A DNA stretch of 64,000 bases, taken from assembly GCF_003583365.1 (NCBI RefSeq), contig NZ_QXED01000002.1, positions 434,001 to 498,000 on the forward strand, read 5' to 3'. The notes beneath the pieces were generated by a model. It was given only the letters and a program-made list of their open reading frames with translations, searched no databases and was not told the origin of the DNA. Positions 4,349-59,041 of the stretch are shown piece by piece. This DNA is from Fibrisoma montanum. Lineage in GTDB: Bacteria; Bacteroidota; Bacteroidia; Cytophagales; Spirosomataceae. The number at the start of each line of letters is the position of its first letter. The stretch's first letter is position 1. The position numbers were made by a program, and so were the translations under genes.

Positions 4349-5045
4349 GGACGAGCACCTGGCCCAGGAAATACTGGAAGAGTACATCAGCAAAGTCCCG
4401 TTTCTGGAGTTAAAAGGTGTCTACGACAGTCCCCTGGAGGCCGCCGGCCCGCTGGCGGAAAACAAACCCGACCTGCTGTTTCTGGACATCAGCATGCCGG
4501 ATCTGGATGGGCTGAGTTTCATCCCGATGCTGAGCCCCAAACCCATGATTATCCTTACTACCGCCTACGATCAGTACGCGCTGAAGGCCTACGAACTGGA
4601 GGTGAAGGACTACCTGTTGAAACCCTTTACGTTTGAGCGGTTTTACAAAAGCGTTCTGCGTCTGTACCAGCAGCAAAGTCCCCGCCATAGCGGGGAAAAG
4701 AAGGAAGAAAGAACGGAAACGAAGAACGGGCCGGGGTATATGTTTCTCAAGGTGGGCCACCGCATCCAGAAAGTGGCTATTGGCGATATTCTTTTTGTGG
4801 AGGGTATGAAAGACTATTTACGGATTCATACCGCGGACGAGAAGATTATGACGCTGTTGAGTTTCGCCAAGCTGGAAGAGCTGTTACCCGCCGAGGCTTT
4901 TGCCCGCGTGCACCGATCCTTTCTGGTCGCAATTGACAAAATCGACCACATCGAGAAAAACCGGATCTGGATTGCTGACCAGATCATCCCCATCACTGAT
5001 ACGTATGCCGAGGCTTTTTATAAGCTGCTGAAGGGGTTACAATAG
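4317..5045 (+). CDS. LytTR-family response regulator
   Basis: A 242-residue regulator with a receiver domain (residues 5-120) and a C-terminal LytTR DNA-binding domain (about 140-240). The phosphoacceptor is D57 in FLDISMP; the acidic pocket E11/D12 and the lysine in YLLKPF are present. LytTR features include FLKVGHRIQKV and FARVHRSFLVA. The start lies inside the upstream kinase gene by 32 bases, so the pair is almost certainly cotranscribed and functionally matched. Targets are not evident; proteins of this class often regulate a nearby exporter, and the divergent ABC pair at 1-3045 is a candidate. Confidence 0.92.
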   Translation: MKEKLTCCIIEDEHLAQEILEEYISKVPFLELKGVYDSPLEAAGPLAENKPDLLFLDISMPDLDGLSFIPMLSPKPMIILTTAYDQYALKAYELEVKDYLLKPFTFERFYKSVLRLYQQQSPRHSGEKKEERTETKNGPGYMFLKVGHRIQKVAIGDILFVEGMKDYLRIHTADEKIMTLLSFAKLEELLPAEAFARVHRSFLVAIDKIDHIEKNRIWIADQIIPITDTYAEAFYKLLKGLQ

Positions 5046-5207
5046 GGGGGCTTAGCTCGAATCAAGAATCGGTCAAAAGGGCGGCAACTTTCAACCAACA
5101 ATACGTTCATCTCTGGCCCCAGGAGCGCTCTACCCTATGGCTTTCTGTGGTGCATTATCAACGCGGCTTTTTTTGCAACAAGGTTTTAATGATGCGTCCT
5201 GCCTGGT

Positions 5208-7829
5208 TTAAGGCTGAAGTTCAAGTCGATACGTGTTCAATTGGCTGGGGCCGAACGGCACGTTGAGGCTGCCTTTCGTCGGAGATACCGTGCGTTCGTT
5301 GGTCTCAATATGGGTTGTCTGCCAGGCCCGCCTGATGGGTCGGGCCAGTTGAAGCCCTGGCGTAACGGCCGTATTGGTTACGTTCCAGAAGCGGGTAAGC
5401 AGGCCGTTGTTGATACCTTCTTCGCTGGGTTTCAGGCTCCAGAGCAGCACATTCCGGTCGGTGACCGTTAACAGTGAATAGGTCGCGGCTGGGTAACTGC
5501 CAGCTGAGCCTGTCACGACACCGGTTACTAGTGGGTTCTGGTGTTCGAGTGAAAAACGCATGGCGGCCAGCGCATCGAAAGCCGATTGATGCGTGGTGAG
5601 CGCAAACTGGTAGCGGAAGGCAGTAGCTCCGTTTTGTTTCAGAATGCCAAGTTTTGGCCCGTCAACCTGTCCGCCCGCCAGCGCGTTCAACTGGGTCGAC
5701 GTTTCCCACAGCGAATCGGTTGTGCTTTGGCCCAATTTAAAGAAACTGCAATCCATGTTGGATACCGTTACGCCATAAGCAGCCTCGCTCAGATCAGCGA
5801 AATGATTGAACGTTAGCCAGTCGTAGCGGCCCAGTGCGCTGGTGCCGTTTCGGGCAGCATAATGACCGCCACGCGTTTCTTTTTTTGCCGTGAGAATCGC
5901 ACCCAGTTCTTCATGGCGAGTCGTGGGTTTGGTTAAGTTGAGTGAAAAGGCCCAGGTTTTTATCGAATCAAAATTGGCCTGGATGCTGTCTTCAATCTCG
6001 ATACGCCGACTGTTTTTGTACAACGTCACCCGGACGGTATGCGCAATCGGATCGTTGGAAACTGCTTTGAGCGTTACGGATACGGCTCCCGCATTGTCGA
6101 CCTCGACCGTATTGCCAGCATCCGGATTTGTTGTGCCCAAATCATTTAACAACCGTCCGTCAATTGACTGGATAACGTTTCGGTTACCAGCGCGCAGATC
6201 CACCAGTTCGCTGATAACGCCTGATTTGCGCAGGCGAAGCCGGTAATAGCCATTCTGTATGGTTTCGCCGTTCACCTGAGCAGCCAACGGTTGTCGGGTT
6301 GGAGCGCCGGTCCGAATCTCAAAGACTTTGTAACCCACCGAGGGTATGTTCTCAGCCCAGATGCGTAGATACGGCCGGCCCCCTTTACGAATCACCTGAC
6401 TGGTTGCTTCGATGTTGGTCTGTACGTCAATCACCTTCACCGGATCGTTGCCAACAAAGGCAAAATCAGCTACATCGCTGCGAATCCAGCTAAGCGGGTT
6501 GAACACATAAAACCGAATTGCCGTACCGCTTACAGCCTTCACGTGGCTCCCCAGCGCAGTTACTGATCGGTTGTAAAGCGTGTCGACATAACCGGTGATG
6601 TAGTTCTTCTGCTTGGTCTGCCAGTCGGCCCGCTCCTGGCGGGTAACCGGCCCGTCGGCGGTCCAGTCATGTTCCCAATACAGCCCATACGCATCCCAGG
6701 CCTGCTTTCGGGCGGGCGTCAGGTCGCGGGCAAACGTAGAATCTTTCAGCGACACGAACGAGGCCAGGGCTTCGGCGGTGCGTAGCTTCTCGGTAGCTCG
6801 ACGGACCTGGGCCGTGGTTTCATTCATCGATGCCGGGTACAGATCCCACTCGTTGCCATAGCTGACCGACTCGCCTGGTAGGTTGGGGTAGCTTCGGTCA
6901 ACATCTCGAAAAAAGTCTTCTTCGTTCGACACCCGCACCCGGCGGTTGGGTGTCGTACCGGTCTGTGCCGCCCTGATGAAATCGGGTGCGACAAACGTAC
7001 TGAGATCGTCCCAGCCGTAGCCAAACGCCCCGGCTACGTTGTAAGGATAGGTTGAGCTCGCCGAAACGGTGTCACAAAGAGTCGTCAGGTCATTAATCGT
7101 GCGGGCAAAATTAGCGGCTATACCCGCTGTTTTACGTTGCGGCCGGGTTTCGGCATACCCGCCGACCCCGCTATTTTCTCCGGTCAGGTTGTACCACTTC
7201 ATGATGACGCTGCGCCGGTCGGGGCCCATATACCGGTACAACTGGTGGTTCCGGTGAGCCAGACTGGCATTGGCAATCCGGCTCGCACAGCCACACACGC
7301 CCCGCCAACTGTATTTGGCGCCCGCTCCCGCCCAAAGCGAACTCAGCCCCATCGGCAGCGTCTGATTTTCCATGCATACCGCCATCGAAAACCGCAGCCG
7401 GGACGCCGGACCGCTATACTGCCGTTCGAGCTGCCCGGCGTAGTACATGCCCCGCAGGACGGCTTCAGTCGGCTGCCCGCCATACGTACTAACCAGTGCA
7501 TTTAACGGACTGCTGATGTGCCCTGATTTGAGGTAGCCTATCAATCGATCAAACTGGGCCGGACTGCGATACTTCTGATACGTCCGCAGCCAGTAGCTGC
7601 CGTCGCAGTTGAAGCGGGCCTGGAAGTCGTCGGGGTTGTTGCGGGTCGAATCAATCTGGCCCATGTAGTAGTCCAGCATGTGCACAAAAGCCGAGTCGTA
7701 CTGCGCTTCGTTGCCCGTCCACATGTAGTCGGTATGGTCGTCGTTGGCCAGATACAGCCGTTTGACGGGCTGCGCCTGAGTAGCCAAAGCGGATGTTAAT
7801 AAAAAGACGACGGGAAGAAGTGCTTTCAT
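5208..7829 (-). CDS. Secreted glycoside hydrolase family 38-like protein (alpha-mannosidase superfamily)
   Basis: The start at 7829 gives MKALLPVVFLLTSALATQAQ, a clean signal peptide; an in-frame ATG 45 bases upstream would only add an atypical leader. The mature protein opens with LYLANDDHTDYMW, resembling the His/Asp metal-binding opening of GH38 enzymes. The middle holds aromatic-rich loops and a Cys pair (VCGC). The C-terminal half (from about residue 470) looks like the beta-rich GH38 C-terminal region. It probably acts on exported or environmental glycans. No polysaccharide utilisation partners (SusC/D) are adjacent. It converges on the LytTR gene and diverges from the choice-of-anchor I gene. 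The substrate is unassigned. Confidence 0.65.
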   Translation of the reverse strand: MKALLPVVFLLTSALATQAQPVKRLYLANDDHTDYMWTGNEAQYDSAFVHMLDYYMGQIDSTRNNPDDFQARFNCDGSYWLRTYQKYRSPAQFDRLIGYLKSGHISSPLNALVSTYGGQPTEAVLRGMYYAGQLERQYSGPASRLRFSMAVCMENQTLPMGLSSLWAGAGAKYSWRGVCGCASRIANASLAHRNHQLYRYMGPDRRSVIMKWYNLTGENSGVGGYAETRPQRKTAGIAANFARTINDLTTLCDTVSASSTYPYNVAGAFGYGWDDLSTFVAPDFIRAAQTGTTPNRRVRVSNEEDFFRDVDRSYPNLPGESVSYGNEWDLYPASMNETTAQVRRATEKLRTAEALASFVSLKDSTFARDLTPARKQAWDAYGLYWEHDWTADGPVTRQERADWQTKQKNYITGYVDTLYNRSVTALGSHVKAVSGTAIRFYVFNPLSWIRSDVADFAFVGNDPVKVIDVQTNIEATSQVIRKGGRPYLRIWAENIPSVGYKVFEIRTGAPTRQPLAAQVNGETIQNGYYRLRLRKSGVISELVDLRAGNRNVIQSIDGRLLNDLGTTNPDAGNTVEVDNAGAVSVTLKAVSNDPIAHTVRVTLYKNSRRIEIEDSIQANFDSIKTWAFSLNLTKPTTRHEELGAILTAKKETRGGHYAARNGTSALGRYDWLTFNHFADLSEAAYGVTVSNMDCSFFKLGQSTTDSLWETSTQLNALAGGQVDGPKLGILKQNGATAFRYQFALTTHQSAFDALAAMRFSLEHQNPLVTGVVTGSAGSYPAATYSLLTVTDRNVLLWSLKPSEEGINNGLLTRFWNVTNTAVTPGLQLARPIRRAWQTTHIETNERTVSPTKGSLNVPFGPSQLNTYRLELQP

Positions 7830-51779: not shown

Positions 51780-52187
51780 TCAGCTGAAGTGCTGATTGAC
51801 AATTGCCTGAAGCATGGCCTTCGTCAAAGGTTTCGACAGATACCCTTTCACTTCGTTGAACTGGCTGGCCCGGGTGGTATCGGCCGGGAAGAGCGAGGTA
51901 GTCAGCATAAGCAGAACCACGCGGCTTTGCAGGCTAGGGTCGATCTGCCGGTAGTGTTCGAGGAACTCAAAACCGTTCATACCGGGCATATTGATATCCA
52001 GCAGAATGATATCCGGCCGGATGTAGTCCGGGTGGTCGGTATCAGTCAAATACGCCAGGCCCAACTGTCCATTTTCGGCTACGCGAACGGTTTCGCAGAG
52101 TCCGGTTTCTTCGATGATCAGCTGATGGAGGTAATTATCGTCGGGGTCGTCGTCAATTAAGAGAATGCACCGAATCGGCCTGGGCAT
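51780..52187 (-). CDS. CheY-like single-domain response regulator
   Basis: A 135-residue receiver with D12-D14 acidic pocket, phosphoacceptor D64 in LLDINMPGMNGFEF, and LSKPLTK near the end. There is no output domain. The size and pattern resemble Rcp1-type regulators that serve phytochrome-like or hybrid kinases. Its first 35 bases overlap the upstream kinase gene, so the pair is coupled and the kinase is its likely phosphodonor. Confidence 0.92.
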   Translation of the reverse strand: MPRPIRCILLIDDDPDDNYLHQLIIEETGLCETVRVAENGQLGLAYLTDTDHPDYIRPDIILLDINMPGMNGFEFLEHYRQIDPSLQSRVVLLMLTTSLFPADTTRASQFNEVKGYLSKPLTKAMLQAIVNQHFS

Positions 52188-53316
52188 ACTGATGGAGGTG
52201 TTTTATGACTTTGGGAATGGTAAAGTAAACGGTAGTGCCGCTGCCGACGACGCTATCGAGCCAGATCTGACCGCCGTAAATATCAATAACCTTTTTACAG
52301 GTAGCAAGTCCGATGCCGGTTCCGGAGTATTCGTTTCGGCCGTGCAGCCGTTGAAAAATCTGAAATACCCGCTCGAAATACTGCTGTTCGATGCCGATGC
52401 CATTGTCGCTGATAGCGAACCGGTATTGTTGAATCTCGTCCATAACCTGGATTTTGACGTAAGGAGCTACGCCGGGACGCCGGTATTTAAGAGCGTTGGT
52501 AATCAGATTCTGAAAGAGTTGTTTCAGATCGGTTCCGTGTCCCATGATAGTCGGCAAAACGGATTTGTCGATCGTGGCACCGGTCGCCTGGATTTCGGCC
52601 TGCAGCTCTTCAGTAATCTCATTAACCAATCGGTTCAGATCGACGGGTATGTAGGCCATGTCGCTGCCCACCCGCGAAAATTCCAGTAAATCCCTGATCA
52701 GATGCCGCATCCGTTCGGCAGCCGCCGACGATACCGTAATGAGTCGCCGGGCATCGTTGTCGAGCTGGTTACCGTGTTTGGCTTCGAACAGCGTCAGGTA
52801 GCTGGTGATGGTTTTCAACGGCGACTGCAGATCGTGGGAGGCAACGTAGGCAAACTGCTGGAGTTCCTGATTGGAGCGGGTCAGCTCCTGCATGGCCAGT
52901 TGCCGGTACGACAGTTCGCGGTCGTATTCGCGGGACGTGCGCAGCCCAACGGCCTCCTTGAAATAGCGAACCAGCGCAATCACCGTCGCCACGGACACGA
53001 CACCCGTGAAAAAGCGGATCAGGGCGTTGATCCGGTAGGCCGGTAGCCAGAACATCATGGCGTCGATAAGGTGCGTAAGGCCGCAAAGAAGAATAAACGC
53101 ACCAAACAGCCAGAATACACCCGGAAGCGGTACGCCCTTTTTTATGATGACAAACCGGATCAGAATCAGCGGAATTGCCATGTAGGCCAGCCAGATGGTC
53201 AGGTCCGAGAGAATGTATAACCAGCCGTGAAAGTCGGACCAGGTTCCGCAAAGCCATCGGGGAGGCCAGTCGCCCATATCCGTCAGGCGACGAAAGAAAT
53301 CAAAAACTTGCTCCAT
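52153..53316 (-). CDS. Sensor histidine kinase with ethylene-receptor-type membrane domain
   Basis: A 387-residue kinase. Three membrane segments (about 33-58, 66-90, 96-118) precede a coiled coil, a HisKA domain with H161 in VASHDLQSPLKT and a HATPase domain (NALKYRR, DNGIGIEQQ, GTGIGLATCKK). The membrane domain contains D38, Y45, I48, P49, I75, C78 and H82. These correspond with a constant offset of 13 to Asp25, Tyr32, Ile35, Pro36, Ile62, Cys65 and His69 of plant ETR1, residues known to be needed for ethylene binding through copper. Thus a copper/ethylene-like ligand sensor is inferred. Unlike ETR1 there is no GAF domain. The response regulator gene overlaps its 3' end. Confidence 0.87.
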   Translation of the reverse strand: MEQVFDFFRRLTDMGDWPPRWLCGTWSDFHGWLYILSDLTIWLAYMAIPLILIRFVIIKKGVPLPGVFWLFGAFILLCGLTHLIDAMMFWLPAYRINALIRFFTGVVSVATVIALVRYFKEAVGLRTSREYDRELSYRQLAMQELTRSNQELQQFAYVASHDLQSPLKTITSYLTLFEAKHGNQLDNDARRLITVSSAAAERMRHLIRDLLEFSRVGSDMAYIPVDLNRLVNEITEELQAEIQATGATIDKSVLPTIMGHGTDLKQLFQNLITNALKYRRPGVAPYVKIQVMDEIQQYRFAISDNGIGIEQQYFERVFQIFQRLHGRNEYSGTGIGLATCKKVIDIYGGQIWLDSVVGSGTTVYFTIPKVIKHLHQYAQADSVHSLN

Positions 53317-53624: not shown

Positions 53625-54083
53625 CCGACTTCGTATACATTATCCCGTTCGATCAGGAGTCGGCGGCCGAAGGGCAATACGGTCAAATTGTGTCGGTTGT
53701 TAAGACGAAGTAATCGGTAGTTCGCCAATTTTCGTATGTATACAAATAGGCTCCGTTGGTATTCGGGGTACTTGACCACCTACTACGCTATTTGAGTTAC
53801 GAGAAAGGAAAATAAACCACGGGTTGGTTGCCCGTGCAGACACACTTTTCCGGTAATGTCATAGCCACTGCCAGTGCAACGCTGATCCGTTCCCACCGAT
53901 CTGTTACGGCACCATACCTGTCGTTACATTAGATGCAGATACGTAGAATCAGGATCTGCAAACCCAAAGAACAGTGTCGCCGTTGTAAACAGAGGTACGG
54001 CACTCGAAACGTACAGTTCTATCCAACTAATGTGCAAAATCGGAGTTCGCCGGATGGTGACTTCTGGTTGTACTTTACACTCT

Positions 54084-54869
54084 ATGGACCCGATCAATAT
54101 ATTAATTGTTGAGGATGAAGCTATTTTGAGAATGGACTTGTCGCAACGGCTGTCGCAGATGGGGTATCAGGTTGTTGCCGTGGCCGATAACGGCCCCCGG
54201 GCCCTTGCATTGTATCAGGAACACTCTATTGACCTGGCGCTGCTCGACATACATATTCTGGGCGAGTGGGATGGTATTGAAACGGCCCGTCGGATGCGGC
54301 AGATCAGGCCGATACCCGTAATTTTTCTGACGGGGCTGACCGATAACGATACGTTTGCGCGTGCGCGGACGGTGTCGCCGGCTGCCTATATCTCCAAACC
54401 CTTCAATGATTTCAGCCTGCGGAGTGCCATTGATCTGGCCGTCCAGAATTTTGCTCTGCCGCCCGCTACCGATGAATCGGCTACGGAGTCGACTGCTGAT
54501 CATACCCTTCCGGAAGGAGCCGAACCGATTGGGAAAGGGGAATTGATTCTGCATACCAGGGAATACGTGTTTATCAAGCAGAATTACCGGTTTACGAAGT
54601 TCCGGATCGACGACGTACTGTATCTGCATTCCGAAGGCAACTACACGGACATCATCACGAAAGAATCCAAATACACGCTTCGGCTGGTGCTCGGTAAAGT
54701 ACTGGAAAAGCTACAGACCCCCGACATCGTGCGTACGCATCGTTCGTACGCCGTGAACCTGCGGCACGTTGATTCGTTCAGTGAACACGAAATTTACATC
54801 CGATCGCACTGCATACCCGTCGGGCGGAGCTACCGCGGGGAGTTTATGAAAGGATTCGAGTTTAAGTAA
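54084..54869 (+). CDS. LytTR-family response regulator
   Basis: A 261-residue regulator with receiver (E10, D11; phosphoacceptor D55 in LALLDIHILGEWDG; lysine in ISKPFND) and a C-terminal LytTR domain (FIKQNYRFTKFRIDDVLYL, VRTHRSYAVNLRHVD). The ATG at 54084 gives the family start MDPINILIVEDEA. No kinase is directly adjacent: the LytS-type kinase is distant, while the 7TM-type kinase at 56831 lies beyond the ABC-F gene. It is an orphan regulator within the window. Confidence 0.9.
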   Translation: MDPINILIVEDEAILRMDLSQRLSQMGYQVVAVADNGPRALALYQEHSIDLALLDIHILGEWDGIETARRMRQIRPIPVIFLTGLTDNDTFARARTVSPAAYISKPFNDFSLRSAIDLAVQNFALPPATDESATESTADHTLPEGAEPIGKGELILHTREYVFIKQNYRFTKFRIDDVLYLHSEGNYTDIITKESKYTLRLVLGKVLEKLQTPDIVRTHRSYAVNLRHVDSFSEHEIYIRSHCIPVGRSYRGEFMKGFEFK

Positions 54870-56679: not shown

Positions 56680-56830
56680 GCTGCCTGAAGCCAGGCCGGC
56701 GGAGTGGTGGCTGGTTGTTTTTCCGCAATAGAAATTGAAAATCGTTTGAAGGTAATTGGTTTAGGTTAAGTATATTAAGCCATCTTTTGTAGTTGCCTTA
56801 TCCCTGCCTTAGCGTTTGATTTCCCCGCTC

Positions 56831-59041
56831 ATGAAGTTACTGTCACTCGTCGTGCTCCTGTTCCTGATCGGGGAGCAGGTACTGGGTCAGGCCGTGGTTC
56901 GTATTGACAGCTTACCCGCACAGGGCGTAGTGCTCAATCAGGGCTGGCGGTGGCAGGCGGGCGATAATCCCAATTGGGCGAAGGCAGACGTGGATGATCG
57001 GCACTGGCCGACTATCGATCCGACCCAAAACATCACTGAGCTGGCCCAAATCCAGCAAACGTCCATCGGCTGGCTGCGGCTGCATCTTCGGTTCGATTCT
57101 ACCTTAACCAGCCAGGTGATCAGCCTGCTTGTTGATCAGCAGGTCGCTTCGCAGATTTACCTGAACGGACGGCTCATTGGTCAGTTTGGTCGGGTAAGCG
57201 CCAATCCGGACCAGGTAGAAGCTTACAATCCATCCGGAGCGGATCAGGCTCTGTGGCAGGCCACCCATTTTCAGGTAGATACTCAGCCTCACCAGGTGCT
57301 GGCGGTACGTTTCGCGCGGCAACCGAAAATTCCTTACTTTAAATTTTGGGGTCAGCCGATTCCCTTTCTGCTCATCAAGCTCCACCAGGCGGACCAGCGC
57401 AACCAGTATCGCATGGATAGCGTCGGTAATTTTGATGCTACGTTTCTGGACTACTTCAAGGGGGGACTGTTTCTGATCCTGTCCCTGCTGCATCTTCTGT
57501 TTTATAAATGGTATCCGGCCCAGAAAGTTAATGCCTGGTTTGGGCTTTATTGCTTCCTGGCTGCCTGGGCTTATCTGAACCAACCCCTTATTTATCAATA
57601 CGTTCATAGTGTGCCTCTACGGATGTACGGGGCCGTTGGGCAGTTGGTACTTTACTTTGGGGGGCATCTGGCTTTTCTGGGAGCCGTTTATATCATTTTT
57701 GATAAACGCATCGGGGTGCTGTTCTACACCGCCCTTCTGGTCTTTACCGTTTATGTTATCCTGTTCGCCTTACAGGTAAATATGCCCGATGGGCTGAGCA
57801 TTTTACTGGCCCTGCTGCTGACAGATGTTCAGGCAACCCGACTGCTGTTGCTGGCCGCCCGTAAACGGGGGCCGGAATACTGGATTCTTACCATGGGGGG
57901 GATCGGTTTCATCGTCTTTCTGATTGCCTACATAGCCGTTCCGTTCTTACCCGTAACGGTCTTCACTAAACACATCCTACTGCATGTGTTTTATAATTTC
58001 AGTACGCTCAGTTCCCCGGTCAGTGTGACCCTGTTTCTGGCTACACGGTTTGCGCAAACCAACCACTCACTGGCCGAAAAACTGTTGGAGGTCGAAGCCC
58101 TATCGGCTCAGACGCTGGCGCAGGAACAGGAGAAACAACATCTGCTGACCACCCAGAACGAAACCCTTGAAGAGCAGGTAAGCATCCGCACTGCCCAGTT
58201 GAGTCAGTCCCTGAACGAGTTGAAAGAAACGCAGGCACAACTGATTCAGAAGGAAAAACTGGCCAGTTTAGGGGAACTCACCGCCGGCATCGCGCACGAG
58301 ATTCAAAACCCATTGAACTTCGTCAATAACTTTTCGGAAGTGAGCACTGAGCTCATTGAGGAACTGAAAGAAGGGCCGTTTCAACAGCTGCCTGAATCCG
58401 ACAAAGAACATGCCGGGGAAATTCTGAGTGATCTGGAACAGAACCTGCAAAAGATCACCCAGCACGGCAATCGGGCCAGTCGGATTGTCAAGGGCATGTT
58501 AGAACACTCCCGCAGCAGCCCCGGGGAGCGTCAAGCCACCGACCTGAACGCGTTGGCAGATGAATACCTACGACTGGCTTATCAAGGACAGCGGGCCAGA
58601 GACAAGGCGTTTCAGTGTCGGGTAGTGACCAACTTTGATTCCGCGTTAGGCCGGGTAGACGTAGTACCGGCGGAGATAGGCCGGGTACTGCTAAATTTGT
58701 TGACCAATGCATTTTATGCGGTCAATGAGCAGCGCAAAGCGGCTTCCGCAGACTATACGCCCACCGTTTGGGTCAGTACCTTGCAAAAAGCAGAACCAGG
58801 TGGACAGCGGGCGGTCGAAATCCGCATAGCCGACAACGGAACGGGCATAGCGGAATCCGTGAAGGCCAAGATTTTTCAACCTTTCTTCACGACTAAACCC
58901 ACCGGCGAGGGGACGGGCCTGGGGCTGTCACTAAGCTACGATATCATCACCCAGGGCCATCAGGGTTCCTTACAAGTTAGCAGTGAAGAAGGGCAGGGGA
59001 CTGAGTTTATGATTCAGCTTCCTCAACTGGAAAAAGTTTGA
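56831..59041 (+). CDS. 7TM-type sensor histidine kinase
   Basis: A 736-residue kinase. The ATG at 56831 gives a signal peptide (MKLLSLVVLLFLIGEQVLGQ). A periplasmic beta-sandwich follows (about 25-190; GWLRLHLRFDSTL, QIYLNGRLIGQFG), then seven membrane segments (about 215-410), a coiled coil (EKLLEVEALSAQTLAQEQ), HisKA with H489 in GIAHEIQNPLNF and HATPase with NLLTNAFYAV and GTGLGLSLSYD. This is the 7TMR-DISM architecture. No response regulator is next to it; the orphan LytTR regulator at 54084 is the nearest candidate. Confidence 0.9.
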   Translation: MKLLSLVVLLFLIGEQVLGQAVVRIDSLPAQGVVLNQGWRWQAGDNPNWAKADVDDRHWPTIDPTQNITELAQIQQTSIGWLRLHLRFDSTLTSQVISLLVDQQVASQIYLNGRLIGQFGRVSANPDQVEAYNPSGADQALWQATHFQVDTQPHQVLAVRFARQPKIPYFKFWGQPIPFLLIKLHQADQRNQYRMDSVGNFDATFLDYFKGGLFLILSLLHLLFYKWYPAQKVNAWFGLYCFLAAWAYLNQPLIYQYVHSVPLRMYGAVGQLVLYFGGHLAFLGAVYIIFDKRIGVLFYTALLVFTVYVILFALQVNMPDGLSILLALLLTDVQATRLLLLAARKRGPEYWILTMGGIGFIVFLIAYIAVPFLPVTVFTKHILLHVFYNFSTLSSPVSVTLFLATRFAQTNHSLAEKLLEVEALSAQTLAQEQEKQHLLTTQNETLEEQVSIRTAQLSQSLNELKETQAQLIQKEKLASLGELTAGIAHEIQNPLNFVNNFSEVSTELIEELKEGPFQQLPESDKEHAGEILSDLEQNLQKITQHGNRASRIVKGMLEHSRSSPGERQATDLNALADEYLRLAYQGQRARDKAFQCRVVTNFDSALGRVDVVPAEIGRVLLNLLTNAFYAVNEQRKAASADYTPTVWVSTLQKAEPGGQRAVEIRIADNGTGIAESVKAKIFQPFFTTKPTGEGTGLGLSLSYDIITQGHQGSLQVSSEEGQGTEFMIQLPQLEKV

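Follow-up and report, generated by a model that had tools for sequence, protein, structure and literature searches.

In plants, the ethylene receptor ETR1 combines a GAF domain with a fused receiver, carries two cysteines near its N-terminus and signals chiefly via CTR1. As set out in a 2026 review, Cys65 and His69 of ETR1 hold Cu(I), and the distance between histidine and copper increases upon ethylene binding (PMC13012798). The same review describes an aspartate that tunes affinity, for which a salt bridge with a lysine is proposed; exchanging aspartate for asparagine lowers affinity ~100-fold (PMC13012798). Seven residues are reported to be required for ethylene binding in ETR1 (PMC11819568). 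Putative ethylene receptors are also described in bacterial phyla besides cyanobacteria, and Azospirillum brasilense is presented as a non-photosynthetic bacterium with a functional receptor (PMC11819568, PMC7700396). The first 130 residues of this receptor, AzoEtr1, are reported to bind ethylene in yeast, and a PAS domain is present (PMC11819568). For Synechocystis, ethylene is described as a negative regulator of the receptor (PMC7700396). Bacterial ethylene-receptor-like kinases are an already known kind, found in many bacteria. The closest characterised system to the locus described here is AzoEtr1/Azorr-etr1 of A. brasilense.

We analysed a 64,000-nucleotide stretch of Fibrisoma montanum DNA, hereafter the window. 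An earlier note on this DNA had proposed a bacterial histidine kinase with an ETR1-type domain (Table 1). Pfam agrees. ETR1_N (PF25487) matches aa 30-123 (E 1.5e-30; 105.8 bits, cut-off 27), HisKA aa 152-217 (E 1.8e-11) and HATPase_c aa 261-369 (E 1.4e-25). Both kinase domains are intact and score well, and neither a PAS nor a GAF domain was found by Pfam at E 0.01. A profile search of the genome (7.79 Mb, 39 contigs) gave this single ETR1_N match, and the same profile matched 0/14 control genomes. Given the E value and the empty controls, a chance match is excluded. Chance, or an unrelated three-helix domain, is likewise ruled out by the Pfam match taken with family-wide conservation. Judged by sequence, the membrane domain is a true relative of that of the plant ethylene receptor.

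Table 1. Features of the receptor locus, in window coordinates.
Feature	Position	Strand	Basis
Single-domain CheY-like response regulator, 135 aa	51780..52187	-	Pfam Response_reg aa 8-130, E 6e-16
Sensor histidine kinase, 387 aa	52153..53316	-	ORF and Pfam
Ethylene-receptor-type membrane domain, aa 28-124	52945..53235	-	Pfam, alignment, predicted helices
Cys23 codon, motif RWxCGxW, N-terminal of helix 1	53248..53250	-	Alignment
His161 codon, SHD motif, presumed phospho-accepting His	52834..52836	-	Alignment

Residues D38, Y45, I48, P49, I75, C78 and H82 are all present in the window protein. These correspond to the seven ETR1 positions that the earlier note gives as necessary for binding. Alignment with MAFFT, for which the Arabidopsis ETR1 membrane-domain sequence was entered by hand, pairs them with ETR1 D25, Y32, I35, P36, I62, C65 and H69. 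The offset is 13 throughout, just as had been claimed. In the same alignment D38 lies at Asp25 and R101 occupies the Lys91 position; charge is retained and the residue type differs. The window protein keeps equivalents of the residues of the ETR1 Cu(I) site and of the proposed salt bridge, with Arg replacing Lys.

The claimed three-helix, ETR1-like layout was recovered by structure prediction. A model based on 41 aligned sequences (mean pLDDT 83.9) has helices at aa 28-58, 65-87 and 94-124, and block means of pLDDT are 72-89 across residues 21-130. These three predicted membrane helices precede the kinase domains. The model also contains a short N-terminal helix and a helix at 128-184 carrying H161, so helix 3 is predicted to run almost directly into the H161 kinase helix. 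His161 is invariant in the 41-sequence full-length alignment; we assume its role as phospho-acceptor from knowledge of the HisKA family. A single-sequence prediction was poor (mean pLDDT 45.1) and is superseded by this model. By sequence, no solved structure of the membrane domain was found, the sole match to E 1 being an NADH dehydrogenase subunit (E 0.12). In a fold search with the whole model, the 50 of 488 matches listed were histidine kinases or proteins containing one, and are uninformative on the membrane domain. According to the 2026 review, an ab initio model of ETR1 accounts for EPR data better than the AlphaFold model does, and neither agrees with them fully (PMC13012798). Hence, helix packing is left out as evidence.

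The sensor domains sort into an RWxCGxW type, to which the window belongs, and a PHGxC type. A Cys before helix 1 is part of both defining motifs and is present in 97/97 and 19/19 sequences, respectively. In a first set of 119 bacterial rows, all seven residues occur in 89/97 RWxCGxW, 19/19 PHGxC and 0/3 other sequences. Adding eight loci from a profile search of class genomes gives 93/103, 20/20 and 0/4. These counts leave out the window itself (L001), broken copies (L009/L063 and L049), near-identical duplicates and weak loci (L162-L168, L170). The pattern used to find the named loci itself includes I75 and C78, which makes both columns preselected in that set. Rows from whole-genome profile searches carry no motif preselection; in the 52 such rows, to which the family genomes contributed the 30 best of their 43 matches, all seven residues occur in 44 and Cys with His in 51. 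Within the widened RWxCGxW set, Cys and His are kept by 103/103 and one of the seven residues is missing from 10. At position 101, the counterpart of ETR1 Lys91, 97 of the 103 carry a basic residue (80 Arg and 17 Lys) and the other 6 have Leu; in the PHGxC type, 19 of 20 carry Lys there and the remaining one Gln. One weak locus, L162 (27.5 bits, cut-off 27), lacks the signature Cys; its relationship is doubtful, and if counted it would be one further failure. Three others from the class search (L163-L165) resemble unrelated membrane proteins on reading.

Each helix has its conserved positions concentrated on one face (permutation p 0.001, 0.006 and 0.034). The key residues lie no more than 54 degrees from the conserved face, and on helix 2 the deviation of C78 and H82 from it is at most 25 degrees. 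A Cys/His pair pointing into lipid, which the earlier note had named as an outcome that would tell against its proposal, is therefore indirectly disfavoured.

We also compared the helix-1 acid (position 38) with the helix-3 base (position 101). Among 125 rows, leaving out ETR1, L048 and L161, 5 lack the acid and 9 lack the base. Each loss of the acid is paired with loss of the base, and acid lost with base kept occurs in 0/5. Base loss without acid loss is seen in L132, L157, L158 and L160; the rows with changes at either position are L034, L035, L040, L132, L157-L160 and L169. The best tree has 4 acid and 6 base changes. The joint losses may fit a salt bridge, and the pattern is suggestive rather than significant because only 2 independent pairs fall on supported branches.

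In a maximum likelihood tree of 120 sensor domains, the 97 RWxCGxW sequences all fall to the same side of a branch supported at 96/96. Once five long or hand-entered rows are removed, the RWxCGxW and PHGxC types separate cleanly (100/100). With all rows included, the PHGxC type needs two changes, odd rows falling among it, and ETR1, whose branch is long, groups with the RWxCGxW side at weak support (80/18). The domain offers few columns and inner branching is uncertain. The PHGxC type takes in AzoEtr1 (L138) and the cyanobacterial sequences sampled, together with the other proteobacterial sequences and some from Bacteroidota. The RWxCGxW clade spans Bacteroidota, Planctomycetota and Verrucomicrobiota. 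Hence, AzoEtr1, the one assayed bacterial receptor in our sample, lies outside the clade of the window sensor. What our analysis adds is that this sensor belongs to a separate clade, well supported in the sensor-domain tree.

The earlier note had stressed novelty outside plants and cyanobacteria. This was overstated, both in view of A. brasilense, introduced above, and because the domain is widespread. We found ETR1_N in 43/150 sampled genomes of the same family (Spirosomataceae, Cytophagales) and in 21/395 sampled genomes of the phylum; counted over 395 sampled class genomes, 15 exceed the family cut-off and 21 match at E 0.001. A peptide-pattern scan of a species-genome collection confirmed 352 relatives among 361 stretches, and the best 80 of these 352 belong to Bacteroidota, Planctomycetota and Verrucomicrobiota. 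Searching plasmid records at the protein level yielded 18 of them: 7 from Azospirillum, 4 cyanobacterial and the rest mixed (Novosphingobium, Rhodovastum, Blastomonas, Eleftheria and Rhizobium).

Several of these loci have features of their own. Plasmid p2 of Novosphingobium sp. ES2-1 (L134, 1998-3465) encodes an ethylene-type kinase whose gene overlaps that of a receiver; the plasmid is predicted to be conjugative and a cas9 gene lies close to the kinase. On plasmid p1 of A. brasilense MTCC4038 (L049, 5973-6597) the AzoEtr1 orthologue is split over two frames, through sequencing error or a real break, unlike the AzoEtr1 gene of L138, which is intact at 525 aa. Gramella sp. AN32 (L084) and a Bacteroidia MAG (L085) have stand-alone sensor proteins of 159 and 166 aa (~4920-6900), with a separate kinase-like gene within 41 bases downstream. 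Another locus (L100, 4920-5492) encodes a 190-aa sensor-only protein, and no kinase was recognised directly beside it. Diverged ethylene-type sensor domains also occur on two contigs listed as viral (L148, 3001-3234; L149, 1399-1605), where host contamination is possible. These keep Cys and His and differ at the Asp and Pro positions; that of L148 looks like a stand-alone small membrane protein.

The kinase gene is coupled to a receiver gene. The earlier note had described a 35-base overlap with a CheY-like regulator; the ORF coordinates place the overlap at 52153-52187, and the Response_reg match (E 6e-16) confirms the type of protein. Response_reg is the sole domain found, and Asp64 is the presumed phospho-accepting residue. 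Across 31 rows of the window's clade, the receiver start overlaps the kinase gene by exactly 35 bases in 18 and lies at -4 to -44 bases in 5, and 8 rows have no adjacent receiver. Counting kinases with their gene end inside the locus, a receiver is directly downstream in 53/93 of the RWxCGxW type and 4/14 of the PHGxC type. Receiver orthologues (at least 55% identity) occur in at least 23 of the 150 family genomes. This search scored 27 candidates in most genomes, and misses are possible. Of the 23 genomes, 21 have an ETR1_N match, one being the broken gene of G008, and 2 (G053 and G055) do not; across all 150, the proportion is 43/150. Conversely, no receiver match at 1e-18 was found in seven sampled ETR1_N genomes: G003, G017 and five of one genus (G070, G081, G090, G099 and G115). 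The receiver is therefore dispensable.

Five Rudanella and Fibrella genomes have the receiver orthologue (62-66%) unlinked and placed elsewhere. No kinase was recognised among the ORFs read around it. Its neighbour in these loci (L150-L154) is presumably an O6-methylguanine methyltransferase-like gene, judged by its sequence. Such a gene is also found downstream of the linked pair in Arsenicibacter (L068). Since the methyltransferase-like gene adjoins both, its link with the receiver may be old.

The wider neighbourhood is variable. The other window neighbours are found in 1 of the 26 loci listed, that of Fibrisoma limi. In 79 named loci (80 returned, minus L063 with its broken kinase ORF), the receiver is the most frequent neighbour, present in 44; another kinase-like gene occurs in 14, and every other family, identified by reading, in at most 7. 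No conserved third gene naming the output was seen in these 79 loci. The kinase and receiver would thus form a portable pair with its output elsewhere, because the pairing recurs while other neighbours are shared with F. limi only. None of the window neighbours identified points to ethylene, and a genome search for ACC deaminase gave a best match of 56 bits against a curated cut-off of 392. Three copper-ATPase genes exceed their curated cut-off; such a match also occurs in 13/14 control genomes.

Upstream of the receptor gene, on the opposite strand, lie a LytTR response regulator (54030-54869, +) and a large histidine kinase (56816-59041, +), with an ABC-F ATPase-like gene in between. This arrangement is present in F. 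limi and in 0 of the other 25 loci listed. In Spirosoma (L055, L058, L061, L062, L064, L065 and L067), genes that we take, from their sequences, to be glucose-6-phosphate dehydrogenase-like and 6-phosphogluconolactonase-like lie upstream of the pair in 7 loci each. A presumed ribose-5-phosphate isomerase B-like gene is downstream in 6. Glycogen or starch phosphorylase genes are reported in the vicinity of AzoEtr1 and GeiEtr2 (PMC6682694, PMC11819568).

Our interpretation is that the locus probably encodes a minimal bacterial two-component system. Its sensor is of the ethylene-receptor type and most likely holds Cu(I) through C78 and H82 and binds ethylene at the copper. Ligand binding would disturb the metal site and the putative D38-R101 contact between helices 1 and 3. 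Helices 1-3 would move, and helix 3 would transmit the change to the kinase helix, altering autophosphorylation of H161. Phosphate would pass from H161 to D64 of the overlapping receiver. Having no output domain, the receiver would need to act on other proteins, as a phosphate carrier, a sink or a CheY-like effector. We favour ethylene as the signal because of the ETR1_N match, conservation of the seven residues, the one-sided pattern of conservation, the parallel with AzoEtr1, co-occurrence of the receiver and the copper-ATPase genes. Several observations weaken the case. Among the papers listed we saw no binding assay of any RWxCGxW-clade member and no paper on Bacteroidota ethylene receptors, although earlier mention in print is possible, and AzoEtr1 is of modest similarity and from outside the clade. 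Furthermore, 10/103 relatives miss a residue, 6/103 have Leu at the Lys91 position, no ethylene-linked neighbour or ACC deaminase over the cut-off was found, and the receiver is dispensable.

Some of these same observations would suit a sensor that binds Cu(I) and responds to something else, either copper status or another ligand such as acetylene, CO, NO or O2. The clade stands apart from AzoEtr1 and the sampled cyanobacterial sequences, has R, K or L where the PHGxC type has Lys in 19/20, and keeps Cys and His throughout; no ethylene gene was recognised nearby. We nevertheless think a different signal unlikely. All of the ethylene-binding residues, beyond the two metal ligands, are conserved in 93/103 sequences, and 0/22 of the most recurrent neighbour families listed are copper-gene-like, judged by reading. 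A decayed or repurposed relative, with residues kept for folding and a constitutive kinase that senses no ligand, is far less plausible still. Decay does occur in the family: the Fibrella rubiginis receptor gene (L009/L063) has an in-frame TGA in helix 1, a remnant in G042 (C16:51200-51352) has two TGA codons and the frame of L161 is broken in helix 1. In addition, L048 lacks equivalents of Tyr, Pro, Ile62 and Cys, and several other relatives have Asp replaced. The window gene, however, is intact, keeps all seven residues and has well-scoring kinase domains, and 18 of the 31 clade members share its overlap with the receiver gene.

Returning to the ethylene interpretation, we infer that the window protein probably binds ethylene. 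Whether this extends to the whole RWxCGxW clade seems to us evenly balanced. Under that proposal, these sequences would be a second clade of true Cu(I)/ethylene receptors in non-photosynthetic Bacteroidota, Planctomycetota and Verrucomicrobiota. The simplest form would be a bare sensor-kinase with a single-domain receiver, sensing plant or microbial ethylene. If the clade does bind ethylene, the range of ethylene sensing reaches well past cyanobacteria and plant-associated proteobacteria and takes in widespread Bacteroidota. How ethylene binding reaches the kinase is listed as unanswered in the 2026 review (PMC13012798). With neither a PAS nor a GAF domain found in it, the 387-aa form offers a naturally simple construct in which to study this coupling. 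Natural variants of the Asp and of the basic residue in relatives are ready tests of the proposed salt bridge. The RWxCGxW clade is worth assaying.

Compared with described systems, the window locus is nearest to that of F. limi BUZ 3 (L050). The kinases are 91%, the receivers 92% and the domains 93% identical, neighbours match on both sides and the only differences are ordinary sequence divergence. Plant ETR1, again from the hand-entered sequence, shares the three-helix domain and seven equally spaced residues, and differs in having Lys91 where the window has Arg101. SynEtr1 (slr1212, Synechocystis) and GeiEtr1 and GeiEtr2 (Geitlerinema) are likewise described as having an ethylene-binding domain on a histidine kinase (PMC6682694, PMC11819568), with one N-terminal Cys as in the window (PMC6682694). 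SynEtr1 is also described as signalling via a response regulator (PMC6682694, PMC11819568). By description, SynEtr1 differs in its phytochrome-like domain, GeiEtr1 in a GAF domain and GeiEtr2 in PAS and GAF domains, none of which Pfam reported here (PMC6682694, PMC11819568).

AzoEtr1 offers the closest parallel in a characterised system. It too is an ETR1_N-type membrane histidine kinase with all seven residues, and its next gene encodes an overlapping 135-aa receiver without an output domain; the overlap is 8 bases there and 35 here. AzoEtr1 differs in length and in its PAS domain (525 aa, against 387 aa and no PAS found here), and is of the PHGxC type, having Lys where the window protein, of the RWxCGxW type, has Arg101. 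The sensors are 32% identical over 136 columns and the receivers 28% over 80 columns. Because these identities are modest, the kinase-receiver pairing common to both may be convergent rather than inherited.
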